In this document: in pieces, positions 5,969 to 11,719 of the stretch
How the letters are laid out: the number at the start of each line of letters is the position of its first letter
Position numbering within the stretch: position 1 is the first letter of the stretch
Virus record (IMG/VR): IMGVR_UViG_3300000563_000022
Coordinates: 1-21,240 of that record
Reading direction: 5' to 3' (one strand)
From: a virus
Length of the DNA stretch: 21,240 bases
The notes under the pieces: generated by a model
The model's database searches: none
Told to the model about the DNA's origin: nothing
Seen by the model: the letters and a program-made list of their open reading frames with translations, nothing else
Position numbers and translations under genes: made by a program

Positions 5969-6128
5969 GTCCTTCTACTCTGCTACTCCATATAGAGGAC
6001 CATCTGCACTGGTGGTGGTTGGCATTGTGGTTTTTTTGTATTTTGCTACCCAGCCCCATAAAAGCACAAAGGAGCATTTCAAAGACCAATTAAGTAAGTA
6101 CGTTAAAGATGAAGAGGAGGGTTTTTAA
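5952..6128 (+). CDS. Small single-span membrane protein
   Basis: About 58 residues with one hydrophobic span (about 18-33, A-L-V-V-V-G-I-V-V-F-L-Y-F-A) and then a Lys-rich cytoplasmic-looking tail (K-S-T-K-E-H-F-K-D-Q). That suggests an N-out, C-in topology. The end is firm because TAA overlaps the next ATG (TAATG at 6126-6130) and the next gene's ribosome site lies inside it. The start is weak: ATG 5952 is only one base after GGAAGG, and in-frame ATGs at 5943, 5910 and 5907 lack a ribosome site. A second short frame starts at 5965 (see findings). It may be holin-like, an accessory lysis protein or a membrane anchor. No family is recognised. Confidence 0.55.
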   Translation: MVLLNESFYSATPYRGPSALVVVGIVVFLYFATQPHKSTKEHFKDQLSKYVKDEEEGF

Positions 6129-6433
6129 TGTCTGAAGTTCAAATAGGAACTACCAGGAAGATTGATGCTGTAAGTAGGATAACTCTACCTAACCATATTA
6201 AGGAGTTTTTAGGTGTGGATGTAGGTTATAAGGTAGAGCTTTTAGTTGTAGGTAAGGATGTGGTTATACGCAGAAAGTCCTCCTACTGTTCTATGTGTGG
6301 AAAAAAAGCTACTCATATCCTCAGAGATACCTTGTTTTGTACTGCCTGCTTAGATTTTATTTCTGAAAAGTACGAAGCTATCAAAAACACAAAGGAGGAT
6401 TCGTTTAATGGCAAACAGCAAGAAGACGATTAA
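6128..6433 (+). CDS. AbrB/SpoVT-type swapped-hairpin regulator with C4 zinc motif
   Basis: A 101-residue protein. Residues 7-49 match the AbrB swapped-hairpin DNA-binding domain (T-R-K-I-D-A-V-S-R-I-T-L-P, then V-G-Y-K-V-E-L-L-V and D-V-V-I-R-R). A pair of CxxC knuckles follows (C54/C57 and C71/C74). Together these parallel clostridial/Bacillus AbrB-type transition regulators, which carry a Cys-rich C-terminal part. AbrB-like proteins bind AT-rich DNA as dimers or tetramers and repress promoters, so this could adjust host or phage transcription. The ATG at 6128 follows AGAGGAGGG. The last 26 bases overlap the ParB-methyltransferase gene, whose ribosome site (AAAGGAGG) lies inside this one. 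Four conserved Cys support structural zinc. Confidence 0.85.
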   Translation: MSEVQIGTTRKIDAVSRITLPNHIKEFLGVDVGYKVELLVVGKDVVIRRKSSYCSMCGKKATHILRDTLFCTACLDFISEKYEAIKNTKEDSFNGKQQEDD

Positions 6434-7703
6434 AGTTACAGACATTGTTGAAGGTAACAGAGGTAGGGTAAAGTATGATAAGATTGAGTCACTTGCAGAA
6501 AGTATTAACCAATTCGGATTGCTTCAACCGATAGTAGTAGACAAAGACCTTACTTTAGTTGCTGGATGTCGTAGACTCCATGCTATTAAAAAGTTGGGGT
6601 GGACAGAGCTTGAGTGGGGTAACCATGTTAAGAGTATGGGTGAGCTTTCTGAATTAGAATTAAAGGAAATGGAACTAGAGGAAAACTTACAGAGAGAAAA
6701 CCTTAGTTGGGAAGAAGAAGTTAACATGCGACATGAAATTCATGTGTTGAAACTTCTCAAGCATAAAGGTTCGAGAACTTTAGAAGAAACTGCAGAAGAC
6801 CTGGGTATTCAAAAGGGGTCTTTATCACAAGATATTAACTTAGCTAAAGGTTTAACTAAATATCCTGAGCTTCGTAAACAAAAAACTAAAGTTGATGCCT
6901 TTAAGGAACTACGCAGAATTAGAGAGCGAGAAGTTCGTGGTGAGTTAATGAAGCGTCGTATGGAAGATGATAGTCCATTAGAGCATATTGAGTTCCATCA
7001 TGGCGATTGTAGGGAACACTCAAAGAAACTCAAAGACAACTCAGTAGATCTGCATCTTACAGACCCGCCCTGGATGATTGATGTAGCTACAGCAGAAGCA
7101 ATAACTAAGAGCTTTGGAAGTTTAGAATATGAGGATGATGACGAAGAAGCTATTAAGGTTGTGCTTTCAGAGGTTTACCCAGAAATGTATAGAACTCTTA
7201 AGGAAGGAGGTCATGCCCTAATATTCTTTGCCATCCAACACTACGAATGGCACAAACAAGCACTTGCTCATGCAGGGTTTGAAGTTGATGAACTTCCTTT
7301 TGTGTGGAGTAGGGGTAGGTTTGGTTCCCGTCATGAGGGAGCGAGGTTTGTTAACACTTATGAAGTAGCTCTCCATTGTTGGAAGGGAACTCCCGTACCT
7401 TTGCCTAAGCAAATTGACAATATTTACTACTGTCGTCTAATACCCAGTGAGGAGAAAATTCATTCGGCAGAAAAACCTGTCGAACTCTATGAACGCCTGA
7501 TTGAGGCTTGCACAGAACCTGGAGAGCTTGTCGCTGACTTCTTTGCAGGTAGTGGTGCAGTGCTTGAGGCTTCACTTAACTTAGGAAGAGATGGTTGGGG
7601 AGTAGAGTTACTTCCTGATGTTTACCATAAAGCCTACGAACGGTTGCAGAAGAAGGAGGTGGAACAGGATGTCGAGGATAGTCCTGGGGGAGGGACCGAG
7701 TAA
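6408..7703 (+). CDS. ParB-like domain / DNA methyltransferase fusion
   Basis: A 431-residue two-part protein. Residues 7-175 are a ParB-type module with G-L-L-Q-P-I-V-V (37-44), V-A-G-C-R-R-L-H-A-I (51-60; usually GERR) and E-E-N-L-Q-R-E-N-L (91-99). A helix-turn-helix-like region follows (E-T-A-E-D-L-G-I, about 127-134). Residues 193-413 are a beta-class amino-methyltransferase with catalytic DPPW at 219-222, then A-D-F-F-A-G-S-G at 376-383 for S-adenosylmethionine binding. The DPPW-before-FAGSG order fits m6A or m4C enzymes. No separate recognition domain is obvious between the motifs, so the ParB part may supply DNA binding. No restriction endonuclease is adjacent, so this looks like an orphan methylase, perhaps for self-protection or partition-like regulation. 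Its 3' end overlaps the polymerase gene by 35 bases. Confidence 0.9.
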   Translation: MANSKKTIKVTDIVEGNRGRVKYDKIESLAESINQFGLLQPIVVDKDLTLVAGCRRLHAIKKLGWTELEWGNHVKSMGELSELELKEMELEENLQRENLSWEEEVNMRHEIHVLKLLKHKGSRTLEETAEDLGIQKGSLSQDINLAKGLTKYPELRKQKTKVDAFKELRRIREREVRGELMKRRMEDDSPLEHIEFHHGDCREHSKKLKDNSVDLHLTDPPWMIDVATAEAITKSFGSLEYEDDDEEAIKVVLSEVYPEMYRTLKEGGHALIFFAIQHYEWHKQALAHAGFEVDELPFVWSRGRFGSRHEGARFVNTYEVALHCWKGTPVPLPKQIDNIYYCRLIPSEEKIHSAEKPVELYERLIEACTEPGELVADFFAGSGAVLEASLNLGRDGWGVELLPDVYHKAYERLQKKEVEQDVEDSPGGGTE

Positions 7704-9969
7704 CGCTAAAATAGTATTTGTAGGTGAAGCTCCTGGCAAACATGAGGCAGAGAGTGGTCGTCCCTTTGTAGGTCCTGCAGGACAAACCTTTAACAACCTT
7801 CTTAGGAGTGCTGGGTTAATAAGAGAAGAAGTTTATGTTACTAATGTAGCTAAAGTACGACCTCCAGGAAATAGGTTTAGAGCTAAGTATTATGTTAAAG
7901 GAAAACCTACAGACGAGTTACTCCACTGCTATGACCAATTAAAGAAAGAAATTGAAACTGTTAATCCTAATCTTATTGTTCCTATGGGTAACGAACCACT
8001 TAGAGCTCTTACAGGTAAGGATAAAATAACAAATTGGAGAGGTAGTATCCTTGATAGTGAGCTGGGTAAAGTAATTCCTACATTTCACCCTTCTGCAGTT
8101 AACCGAAATTGGGGGTACTACCCCCTATCTCTTTTTGATTTCTATCGTATAGCAGACCAAAGCAAGTTTCCCGAACTAGATGTTCCTGACCCTACAATTA
8201 ATGTAGCTAGAAACATTACAGAACTTGAAAAATTTTACACAGAGCTAACTAAACTGGGTCATGCTGGCAACTTACTCTCTTTTGATATTGAAACTTTTAA
8301 TAGGACTGAGATAGATTGTATAGGTTTTTGTGCTTCGCCTGATTGGGCAGTCGTGGTTCCTTTATGTCATAGCGATGGGAGCCCTTATTGGAGCTTACAA
8401 GATGAGATGCAAGTATGGCGAATGATTGCCTCAATGTTAGCTGACCCTAAAATACCCAAGGTAGCTCAAAATGCTAACTTTGATATTACAGTCCTTGAGC
8501 GTTATGGTTGTCCTACTAAAGGACTCTACATGGACACTATGTGTGCTCACAGTGTAGTATATGCTGAGTTACCTAAAGGCTTAGATACACTTACCTCTAT
8601 ATATACAAAATTTCCCTACTTTAAAGACCAGTCTAAAGTAGCTCGTTGGCATTATAATGGTATGGATGCTATTGCTACTCATGTAGTTGCTAATGAACTT
8701 TGCAAAGAGCTAAAGGACTTTGGGGTAGAGAGCTTTTACTTCGACTTTATTCACCTGCTGGTAAATGCTTATCGTGAGATGGGTAACAGAGGGTTGAAGG
8801 TAGACATGAAAACTAGAGCTGAAGTAGACAAAACTCTTAGTGAGCGAATGAAGGAACTAAAAGAAGAGTGGGCACAGGTTACAGGTAAGGAGCTAAACCT
8901 TAACTCTTCTAAACAATTGTTAAATTACTATTATGGAGAGCTGGGTTACCATGAATACAAGAACCGTTCCACAGGTCGACCTACTCTTAATGATGAGGCG
9001 GCTCAGAGGTTATATCGTAAATACAACGACAAATCCCTTCCTATCCTTTTAGAGTACCGAAAACTTTCCAAGTGTTTATCTACCTATGTTAGATCTATTG
9101 TAGACCCCGATGAAAGGATGAGAACAGAATACAAGGTCTTTGGCACAGAAACTGGTCGACTCTCAAGCTCTAAGTGTTTTACAGGACATGGAACTAACCT
9201 TCAGAACTTATATAGACCTGACAATGACCCAAGTGGAGGGTTAATACGGGCATTTTACATCCCCTCTACGAAGGGTAGAGTTTTTATTCAGGCTGACTTA
9301 AGTGGTGCTGATGCTAGAGTAGTTGGCTTGGTTACAGGAGACCCTGGGTTGTTAGATATATTTACTGACCCTAACAAAGATTACCACACTATATCCGCAT
9401 CACTGTTCTTTGGTATACCTGTAGGTCAGGTAAGTAAGGCTCAGCGACAAGTAGCAAAGGCAGGAAATCATGCTTCTAACTATGATGTTAGTTTTAAAAC
9501 TCTTGCTCTTACTCTTGCTATCCCAGAAAATGAAGCTAAGGCTATACTTGCTACCTACCATAACACTTATCCTATGGTGCGTCAGTGGCACAGAGAAGTT
9601 CAATATACCCTCAAGACTAACAATAGAGTTCTCACAACTCCTATGGGTAGAAAGCGTACTTTCTTTGGGCGATGGGGAGATTCGCTGTTTAAGGAAGCAT
9701 ATGCCTTTATTCCCCAGTCTACTGTGGGTGATGTTATCCATAAAGGGTTACTCAACCTGCGGAGAAAACTTCCTTCTTCTTGTGAGGTAGTACAGAATGT
9801 GCATGACTCTTTAGTAATTGAATGTCCCAGGTCAATAGTAAAAGACATCGGACATATGGCTAAAGAATGTATGGAGTTTCCTATAACCTACAAAGACCGA
9901 GAGTTGATAATTCCGGTTGACCTTGAGGTAGGAGATAACTTAAAAGATAAGGAAGACCTAGAACTATAA
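7669..9969 (+). CDS. UDG-like domain / 3'-5' exonuclease / family-A DNA polymerase fusion
   Basis: This 766-residue protein is the phage replicative polymerase. The start is ATG 7669, after AAGGAGGTGG; an in-frame ATG at 7618 would extend deeper into the methyltransferase gene. Residues 13-165 are a family-4-like uracil-DNA glycosylase domain (G-E-A-P-G-x-x-E, G-R-P-F-V-G-P-A-G, V-R-P-P-G-N-R, F-H-P-S). Residues 202-340 are a DnaQ-like exonuclease with DIE at 206-208, N269/D272 and Y329/D333. Residues 370-755 are polymerase I-like: motif A D543/D548, motif B R593/K597/H601/Y605 and motif C VHD at 711-713. The fusion recalls the phage SPO1 polymerase. Three of the four Fe-S Cys of family-4 UDG are missing. 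No 5' nuclease domain is present. Confidence 0.93.
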   Translation: MSRIVLGEGPSNAKIVFVGEAPGKHEAESGRPFVGPAGQTFNNLLRSAGLIREEVYVTNVAKVRPPGNRFRAKYYVKGKPTDELLHCYDQLKKEIETVNPNLIVPMGNEPLRALTGKDKITNWRGSILDSELGKVIPTFHPSAVNRNWGYYPLSLFDFYRIADQSKFPELDVPDPTINVARNITELEKFYTELTKLGHAGNLLSFDIETFNRTEIDCIGFCASPDWAVVVPLCHSDGSPYWSLQDEMQVWRMIASMLADPKIPKVAQNANFDITVLERYGCPTKGLYMDTMCAHSVVYAELPKGLDTLTSIYTKFPYFKDQSKVARWHYNGMDAIATHVVANELCKELKDFGVESFYFDFIHLLVNAYREMGNRGLKVDMKTRAEVDKTLSERMKELKEEWAQVTGKELNLNSSKQLLNYYYGELGYHEYKNRSTGRPTLNDEAAQRLYRKYNDKSLPILLEYRKLSKCLSTYVRSIVDPDERMRTEYKVFGTETGRLSSSKCFTGHGTNLQNLYRPDNDPSGGLIRAFYIPSTKGRVFIQADLSGADARVVGLVTGDPGLLDIFTDPNKDYHTISASLFFGIPVGQVSKAQRQVAKAGNHASNYDVSFKTLALTLAIPENEAKAILATYHNTYPMVRQWHREVQYTLKTNNRVLTTPMGRKRTFFGRWGDSLFKEAYAFIPQSTVGDVIHKGLLNLRRKLPSSCEVVQNVHDSLVIECPRSIVKDIGHMAKECMEFPITYKDRELIIPVDLEVGDNLKDKEDLEL

Positions 9970-9999: not shown

Positions 10000-11268
10000 G
10001 TGAAACGCAAATGCAAAGGAACTTGGTTAAGCGAATATTTGAAGTTTACTGACCGACAAGAAAGCCCTGTTATGTTCCATGCTTTTGTAGGCTTGACTAT
10101 GTTAAGTGCAGTAATTGATAGGAAAATAGTCCTTGACCATGGGTACTTTGAATTCTTCCCTAATCTTTACACCATTCTTGTAGCAGGTTCTCAGAAGTGT
10201 AGGAAGTCTACTGCGGTTAGGATAGGCACAAAGTTCCTTAAAAACTTGCCCAATCCTCCCCTGTTGTTGAGTCAGAAAATGACAAAGGAGCACATGGTAC
10301 AAGAACTTCACCAAAACTACACAGCAAAGAAAATGCAGGGAGAGGTACCAGCAAGTTCAGGTATAATTGTAGCTCCTGAACTTACGGTGTTTTTGTCTCG
10401 TGAAAGTATCCAAGCAGGAATGTTGGGTACACTAGTTGACCTTTATGACTCTGATGCTGATTGGAGTTCAGGGACAGTAGCAAGAGGAGTAGAAGGACTT
10501 AAGAATGTTTACCTATCTTTCTTAGGGGCTTCTTCTCCGGAATATTTGAGGATTTCACTTCCTTCTAATGAGGTAGGTGGTGGAATGTTAGCACGAACTC
10601 TGTTGGTATACCAAAGCCGACCTAAGAAGCCAAACCCACGACCTACTTTAACTCCACAAGAACTGGTAATGAGGGACAACATTCAAGAGGATTTGCATAA
10701 AATCCAACAACTATCAGGAGAGGTCGAACTTGCCCCTGAAGCGGCACTTTGGTATGATGCGTGGTACAACAAATGGTTTAGCCATTCAACTGCTCTTGAG
10801 CACGACCCTGCCTTAGATTCTTACTATGCAGGTAAACACAAACATGTGTTGTCAATAGCTACTTTACTCTCTCTAAGCGAAAATGATGATATGATTATAA
10901 CTACTAGTCACCTAAAACGGTCAATTCAACTGCTTAATGCTAACGAGAAAATGTTACCTAATGTTTTAGGGGGACTTCTTACCTCCCCTGTTGGATTCAA
11001 GAACCAAGTTGTGCTTGACGCTATTAGAATTCTAAAAGAAAATGGATTAAAACCCACAAGAACTAACATTATGCGTAGAGTGCACAATACAATGGATGCC
11101 GAGGAACTTACTAAGTGCCTCACTACTCTTATGGAGGCTGACTTAGTCCAACCTACTGATGCGAAAGGAGGGAGTGCAGTTCGTTATGAGCTCTCAACCA
11201 GACTTGCAGGAACTAGTGTTGACCCATCTGAGATTGAAGAACTCGATGAGGGCGAAATGGATTGGTAG
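10000..11268 (+). CDS. DUF3987-like phage replication ATPase
   Basis: A 422-residue protein starting at GTG 10000, preceded by AAAGGAGGGGAGG. An ATG two bases earlier is followed at once by TGA. The opening (W-L-x-E-Y-L-K-F-T-D, then E-S-P-V-M-F-H-A-F-V and F-F-P-N-L-Y-T-I-L-V-A-G-S) matches DUF3987 proteins, a RecA-like ATPase family found in phage and plasmid replication loci. Its P-loop is G-S-Q-K-C-R-K-S-T at 63-71, with Arg where the second Gly of Walker A is usual. A Walker-B-like G-I-I-V-A-P-E is at 121-127. The C-terminal 120 residues look like a winged-helix domain (I-L-K-E-N-G-L-K-P-T-R-T-N-I-M-R). No TOPRIM primase motif is in this protein. Roles in helicase loading or helicase action are inference. 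The sigma-like gene overlaps its end. Confidence 0.8.
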   Translation: MKRKCKGTWLSEYLKFTDRQESPVMFHAFVGLTMLSAVIDRKIVLDHGYFEFFPNLYTILVAGSQKCRKSTAVRIGTKFLKNLPNPPLLLSQKMTKEHMVQELHQNYTAKKMQGEVPASSGIIVAPELTVFLSRESIQAGMLGTLVDLYDSDADWSSGTVARGVEGLKNVYLSFLGASSPEYLRISLPSNEVGGGMLARTLLVYQSRPKKPNPRPTLTPQELVMRDNIQEDLHKIQQLSGEVELAPEAALWYDAWYNKWFSHSTALEHDPALDSYYAGKHKHVLSIATLLSLSENDDMIITTSHLKRSIQLLNANEKMLPNVLGGLLTSPVGFKNQVVLDAIRILKENGLKPTRTNIMRRVHNTMDAEELTKCLTTLMEADLVQPTDAKGGSAVRYELSTRLAGTSVDPSEIEELDEGEMDW

Positions 11269-11719
11269 ATTTCCAGGAACAAAGGACGACCTTGACTCTC
11301 TCTTAAATGAAGCTCTTTGTGTAGCGGCTTCTAGGTATGACTCTTCAATGGGAACTGCCTTTAGTACCTACGCTTGGGCTACTATGGAGGGTTACATTAA
11401 GACTGAGATTGGAAATGTAACCAAAAAAAGAGAGGCGGAGGTCTATGTTGAAGACCTCTGCCCCTCTACAATAGAAGGGAGGGCTATTAAGGTGGAGGAA
11501 AGTACTGAGAAAGAGCGGAGGTTTACTCCACTTACAGCAACAAGAATTGAACTTACCAATAGAACGCAAGAGCAAATAATTAAAATGTTAGTAGAACACC
11601 CTAACACAACCATTGAGGAGATTGCAGAGGAACTGCAACTTACCAAAGGTCATGTTAGGGATGTAGTTAAACTTATAGCCTACAAACTAGAACAACAAGC
11701 AACACAAGAAAGAGGATAG
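11186..11719 (+). CDS. Small sigma-70-like factor (regions 2 and 4)
   Basis: 177 residues starting at ATG 11186, 13 bases after AAAGGAGGG. An ATG at 11246 would cut the first helix of region 2. Residues 8-75 follow the sigma-70 region 2 pattern: L-V-L-T-H-L-R-L-K-N-S-M, D-D-L-D-S-L-L-N-E-A-L, then R-Y-D-S-S-M-G-T-A-F-S-T-Y-A-W-A at 50-65, the core-binding and -10 recognition helices. Residues 126-170 include a helix-turn-helix (I-E-E-I-A-E-E-L-Q-L-T-K-G-H-V) like region 4. The length and two-region layout fit ECF- or phage-type sigma factors. It closes the + operon and probably switches host RNA polymerase to phage promoters, perhaps the opposing structural operon. It overlaps the ATPase gene by 83 bases. 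Confidence 0.8.
   Translation: MSSQPDLQELVLTHLRLKNSMRAKWIGRFPGTKDDLDSLLNEALCVAASRYDSSMGTAFSTYAWATMEGYIKTEIGNVTKKREAEVYVEDLCPSTIEGRAIKVEESTEKERRFTPLTATRIELTNRTQEQIIKMLVEHPNTTIEEIAEELQLTKGHVRDVVKLIAYKLEQQATQERG

Follow-up and report, generated by a model that had tools for sequence, protein, structure and literature searches.

A phage family A DNA polymerase with an N-terminal uracil-DNA glycosylase domain that lacks iron-sulfur ligands and keeps its uracil-pocket residues

The window, meaning the whole stretch of 21,240 nt that was analysed (positions 1 to 21,240 of IMG/VR virus record IMGVR_UViG_3300000563_000022), covers most of a 26.7-kb virus fragment, and the genome is incomplete. At 7669–9969 on the plus strand lies the gene for a family A DNA polymerase of 766 aa (open reading frame, Pfam, AlphaFold). 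In a single chain, a uracil-DNA glycosylase (UDG) domain is followed by a 3'-5' exonuclease and PolA, as in the SPO1/PaBG type. The UDG domain, of family-4 type but without Fe-S ligands, occupies residues 1–165 (7669–8163; PF03167 and fold match), the exonuclease residues 185–327 (8221–8649; PF01612), and the DNA_pol_A domain residues 384–758 (8818–9942; PF00476), all on the plus strand. The full-length AlphaFold model was confident throughout (pLDDT 95.1, pTM 0.92) with a short linker, and a PDB fold search with it gave Klenow, Bst and Taq polymerases as matches. In the alignment of relatives, exonuclease residues D206, E208, D272 and D333 were conserved, and the polymerase catalytic residues D543 and H712-D713 were invariant. 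Because D206, E208, D272, D333, D543 and D713 are conserved, the proofreading and polymerase activities of the window protein are likely both intact.

A strong Shine-Dalgarno sequence, AAGGAGGT, was read directly at 7653–7660 (+), 8 nt ahead of ATG 7669, which we therefore took as the start; the in-frame ATG at 7618 was rejected, and no Cys pair is found there. The 5' end of the gene overlaps the 3' end of the gene immediately upstream (6408–7703, +), whose product joins a ParB N-terminal domain to an N4/N6 DNA methyltransferase. L003, L004, L005 and L089 each have a ParB or a methyltransferase gene at the corresponding place. Further upstream, a small protein (6128–6433, +) has an AbrB-type-like domain and then a CxxC zinc-finger-like pair; a search for a family match to it found none. 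On the other side, the polymerase gene is adjoined by a primase/helicase-type gene (10000–11268, +; DUF3987, phrog_14296), whose 3' end is overlapped by about 110 nt in a different frame by a gene for a Sigma-70-like protein (11159–11719, +; TIGR02937 E=6e-9, below cut-off). The neighbours of the polymerase are replication genes (PD-(D/E)XK nuclease, AAA ATPase, DUF669 and the DUF3987 primase/helicase), and no second DNA polymerase gene was found within the window. OP947158, PP438425 and MW202489 have a gene order similar to that of the window.

A sequence-only reading had proposed that a family-4-like UDG is fused to the replicative polymerase, citing the motifs GEAPG, GRPFVG and VRPPGNR. All three lie within 7669–8175 in frame with the polymerase, the second reading SGRPFVG, and the proposal held in profile and fold searches. 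PF03167 matched residues 7–149 with E=1.1e-32 (113.5 bits vs a cut-off of 24.3), and phmmer against the PDB matched TthUDG 1ui0 (E=2.7e-29) and Thermotoga maritima UDG (about 1e-28). The NCBIfam family-4 model TIGR00758 scored 120.8 bits, just short of its 125.3-bit cut-off, with its first 11 positions unmatched. The AlphaFold model of the domain alone (pLDDT 97.6) had T. maritima UDG 1l9g as its best PDB match (E=2.5e-18, TM 0.84) and gave TM 0.85 with 1ui0; UdgX ranked next. GEAPG as motif A, the RPPGNR loop and HPSAVNR as motif B are those of family 4. Sequence profile and modelled fold together confirmed the N-terminal domain as a genuine UDG domain, and the abundance of UDG-fused relatives, described below, excludes chance.

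We compared the active site with that of TthUDG, whose numbering is used here, and counted residues in 135 non-redundant fused relatives. Motif A (GEAPG, residues 19–23, 7723–7737) contains E20, equivalent to E41 (Glu in 120/135); it is followed by E26, equivalent to E47 (7744–7746; kept in 124/135), the pocket aromatic F33, equivalent to F54 (7765–7767; 125/135), and the uracil-recognition Asn N59, equivalent to N80 (7843–7845; 117/135). The VRPPGNR loop (residues 63–69, 7855–7875) aligns its N68 with the catalytic N89, and motif B (HPSAVNR, residues 140–146, 8086–8106) supplies H140, equivalent to H155 (His in 126/135), and the motif-B arginine R146, aligned with UdgX R184. Thus the window protein keeps all of the E41, E47, F54, N80, N89, H155 and motif-B arginine positions. 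In UdgX, N91, the counterpart of the N80 position, hydrogen-bonds uracil; published work assigns catalysis, or what corresponds to it in UdgX, to the E/N/H residues and N89 (PMC10359453).

No more than one of the four cysteines that bind the Fe-S cluster is left in the window protein. V63 stands at the family-4 position of ligand C84, and C87 (7927–7929), near TthUDG C100, is the sole possible remaining ligand, with 2% conservation (alignment A3). Of the four ligand cysteines of TthUDG, C13 and C16 are not covered by the alignment. The N-terminal CxxC is absent, because the Shine-Dalgarno-backed start at ATG 7669 leaves it no room. With no N-terminal CxxC, valine in place of C84 and at most C87 left, the domain is, as judged from its sequence, 'family-4-derived' and outside the canonical family-4 members, which are stand-alone enzymes whose [4Fe-4S] cluster is bound by four cysteines; the window protein is unable to form such a cluster, although it has their fold, motif A of the form GE(A/G)PG, RPPxNR and the HP of motif B (1ui0, 1l9g). 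The loss of ligands was absent from the sequence-only reading. In family-4/5 UDGs, the cluster stabilises a loop, and disruption of its cysteines abolishes activity only in part (PMC5295032). With the catalytic residues in place, and since loss of the cysteines lowers activity only partly, the UDG domain of the window may plausibly function without a cluster.

Scanning viral contigs with the single protein gave no relatives. Alignment searches of viral contigs gave 80 loci, a polymerase-only search gave 79 further loci (some on contigs already in the first set), and a smaller alignment run against bacterial-genome contigs gave 13 more, all on MAG contigs and none of use as a prophage in a named host. 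A near-identity DNA search detected no close phage relative; Microcystis phage Mel-JY34, whose host is Microcystis elabens, is a relative that has been isolated. The UDG domain was present in 177 of the 177 assessable relatives, 171 fused and 6 with split polymerases; these figures count loci with repeats, which reduce to the 135 non-redundant fused members. The apparent absence of UDG from L096, L148, L178 and L179 was rejected, as a contig end cuts off the domain. The split polymerases (L074, L089, L137, L153, L165, L180) have a UDG-exonuclease frame and a separate polymerase frame; an intron, an intein, a true split or a sequencing frameshift are candidate causes.

The full catalytic set was found in 67/135 non-redundant members, and the pocket was kept with N89 missing in 42/135, so about 80% have an intact pocket, across deep divergence. 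At least one pocket residue was changed in the other 26 members, among which L172 and L176 are truncations; the domain is still present where the pocket is broken, as in L003, L013, L075, L081 and L085. Mapped on a quick-method tree built from the exonuclease and polymerase regions (133 rows), loss of the intact pocket requires 20 changes, at least 16 of them forced by supported branches, with the two truncated rows slightly inflating the count. The mean top-residue frequency was 0.55 for UDG vs 0.47 for the exonuclease and 0.49 for the polymerase, so that the UDG region is no less conserved than the other two, and the pocket residues are among its best-conserved positions. The mean UDG-minus-polymerase identity was −0.081 in broken-pocket vs −0.014 in intact pairs, a comparison that is descriptive only, given shared ancestry. 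Broken-pocket UDG domains thus diverge faster than their polymerase, suggesting that the sequence of the domain is constrained by the function of the pocket.

A GEQPG motif A, with an otherwise intact pocket and no N89, was found in 32/135 members. In GEQPG members such as L026 and L036, a conserved TNVIKDLDxPLxxYI replaces the RPPxNR catalytic loop, and the KRRIH loop with the UdgX crosslinking histidine was found in 0/37 GEQPG members. In UdgX, Gln at this motif-A position dampens excision (PMC10359453). Because Gln at the position accompanies the R-loop in >98% of UdgX proteins in a published sequence survey, GEQPG without an R-loop is an unusual combination, and no earlier description of such a branch was found in open PMC papers. 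More weakly, we infer from these motifs that the GEQPG subclade may bind uracil alone, without excising it. UdgX of Mycobacterium smegmatis has the fold in common with the window domain, and its GEQPG motif recurs in this subclade; unlike the window protein, with its GEAPG and no R-loop, it pairs GEQPG with a KRRIH R-loop whose histidine crosslinks DNA.

UDG-PolA fusions are already known from SPO1 gp31, PaBG and phiLo, and that of the window is an Fe-S-free variant. The relation to the SPO1 polymerase pointed out in the sequence-only reading was borne out: gp31 (Okubovirus) has the same succession of N-terminal family-4-like UDG, 3'-5' exonuclease and PolA, and its UDG domain shares 31.6% identity with that of the window (E=3e-14). 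In SPO1, however, the pocket is degenerate, with QENPF for GEAPG and N80 changed to Ser; as that of the window is intact, the two domains are not functional equivalents. Pseudomonas phage PaBG gp205 is a published UDG-exonuclease-PolA fusion, found, unlike that of the window, in jumbo myophages (Lupandier; PMC7412058); among open PMC papers, it was the only phage UDG-polymerase fusion encountered. The family A polymerase of phiLo (9QHS, 2026) also has a UDG-like N-terminal domain, which the window domain matches with a profile E of 2.9e-12, a fold TM of 0.72 and 25% identity, but it has 1142 residues and its structure title mentions 'modified template'; no accompanying paper was found in open PMC papers. 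Open PMC papers likewise yielded no earlier description of a cysteine-less, pocket-conserving UDG-PolA lineage.

We then considered the genes of thymine and uracil-nucleotide metabolism. Thymidylate synthase/hydroxymethylase (PF00303) was found in 0/45 records from the lineage of the window, about 30 of which are at least 40 kb long; the 45 comprise the window's incomplete fragment and 44 relatives. It was present in 4/4 of SPO1, Serbin, Almagne and ctfzr933, phages whose UDG pockets are mostly degenerate. No dUTPase (PF00692, PF08761) was found in the window's lineage; PF00692 occurred only in SPO1, which unlike that lineage combines a dUTPase with a dUMP hydroxymethylase, and Serbin alone had a dUTPase_2 (PF08761). 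The fused domain was the sole UDG in 46/46 records tested.

Taken together, these results favour, at somewhat better than even chances, the view that the N-terminal domain serves uracil recognition as a module tied to the replicative polymerase, with probable excision in the window phage. A family-4 UDG would have been joined permanently to a phage replicase and would have dropped its [4Fe-4S] cluster, stabilising but not essential for catalysis, while keeping the uracil pocket, the catalytic Glu/Asn/His and the motif-B arginine. In the window phage, the domain would flip out uracil and probably excise it in or close to the replication fork, and so remove uracil that stems from misincorporated dUMP or from deamination of cytosine; dUMP is a candidate source because no dUTPase was found in the lineage. 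Excision would be retained in lineages like that of the window, and broken-pocket branches would keep a DNA grip only. As about 17–19% of relatives have changed pockets yet keep the domain, uracil chemistry would not be the sole role everywhere, and we infer, less strongly, that the function common to the lineage may be to bind uracil/DNA in cis with the polymerase. Against excision, an abasic site in a single-stranded template would block the polymerase; the Fe-S-anchored loop aids substrate recognition in family 4, and its loss may leave weak activity only. A more specific form, which we put forward tentatively and consider doubtful as a whole, is a permanent Fe-S-free uracil sensor on the replicase, with excision in some branches including that of the window and a GEQPG branch, marked by its new conserved loop, that binds uracil without excising it. 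Such a sensor, if real, would be a phage counterpart, in an unrelated fold, of the read-ahead uracil recognition of archaea.

The main competing explanation, which we consider rather unlikely, is an architectural or processivity module: the main job of the UDG fold would be to hold DNA for the polymerase, uracil chemistry being secondary or vestigial. The presence of the domain in every assessable relative, destroyed pockets included, the repeated breakage on the tree, and the confident full-length model with its short linker fit such a role. Vaccinia D4 is a family-1 UDG that forms a separate subunit, with a family-B polymerase. It is likewise a UDG recruited into a viral replicase, where it serves as processivity factor (PMC10253040). 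The conservation of pocket and catalytic residues in about 80% of members, and the faster change of the domain in broken-pocket lineages, nevertheless point the other way. The suggestion of the sequence-only reading that the domain may be inactive and architectural is unlikely for the window protein but would suit those relatives, a minority, whose pockets are broken. A read-ahead sensor would instead bind template uracil and stall the polymerase without excision, as does the uracil pocket of archaeal family-B polymerases. The 32 members with an intact pocket, GEQPG and no N89, all without the KRRIH loop, and the dampening effect of Gln in UdgX would suit it, but the window protein, with GEAPG and N68 at the N89 position, is of the excising type, and we consider this explanation improbable.

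Handling of modified bases appears more improbable still: a hydroxymethyluracil derivative would replace thymine, and the domain would discriminate or tolerate the modified bases. Thymidylate-synthase-like genes do lie near the polymerase in the distant UDG-PolA phages SPO1, Serbin, Almagne, ctfzr933, LysYB1, Triscuit and KimJongPhill, but none was found in the 45 records of the window's lineage, and where such a gene is present the UDG pocket is mostly degenerate. The parallel with modified thymine that the sequence-only reading drew from SPO1 is not supported here. Counter-defence, in which the domain would repair uracil introduced into phage DNA by host cytidine deaminases, has the slightest probability of all; an intact pocket coupled to replication would fit it, with nothing specific in its favour, but the gene context offered no support and the domain occurs throughout the lineage whatever the host.

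The lineage amounts to a natural experiment on why phages from SPO1 onward fuse UDG to the replicase: the same polymerase occurs with intact, catalytically muted and destroyed pockets, always attached and with no modified-thymine genes. A comparison of the pocket types would tell removal of uracil from its sensing, and both from a simple grip on DNA. Never lost in a large lineage, the domain is directly testable as a replicase-borne detector or remover of uracil, and a uracil-aware polymerase might be of use in biotechnology.

The Fe-S cysteine ligands were kept only in Serbin, Almagne, ctfzr933 and the split ctLwi270, and together with an essentially complete family-4 site only in ctfzr933 and ctLwi270. 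Serbin and Almagne, with cysteines kept and motif A broken, are the opposite of the window's lineage. A CxxC in L005 was discounted, because it sits in a stop-to-stop frame ahead of where the domain can be aligned. The fused UDG keeps Fe-S cysteines in phages with thymidylate-synthase-like genes (L088 3613–8292, L087 2648–8526, L090 2420–8451). UDG scores were insignificant for the T5-like (falkor) and PaMx43 polymerases. In the distant phages LysYB1, Triscuit, KimJongPhill and Emalyn, a thymidylate synthase or dCMP deaminase gene lies beside the UDG-PolA polymerase, and the wider family may be linked to uracil-nucleotide metabolism, a link unseen in the window's branch. The N-termini annotated as 'DNA polymerase I' in Emalyn (L183), KimJongPhill (L184) and Triscuit (L189) are strongly degenerate and UDG-like, suggesting that the UDG fusion may be older and wider than annotation shows.
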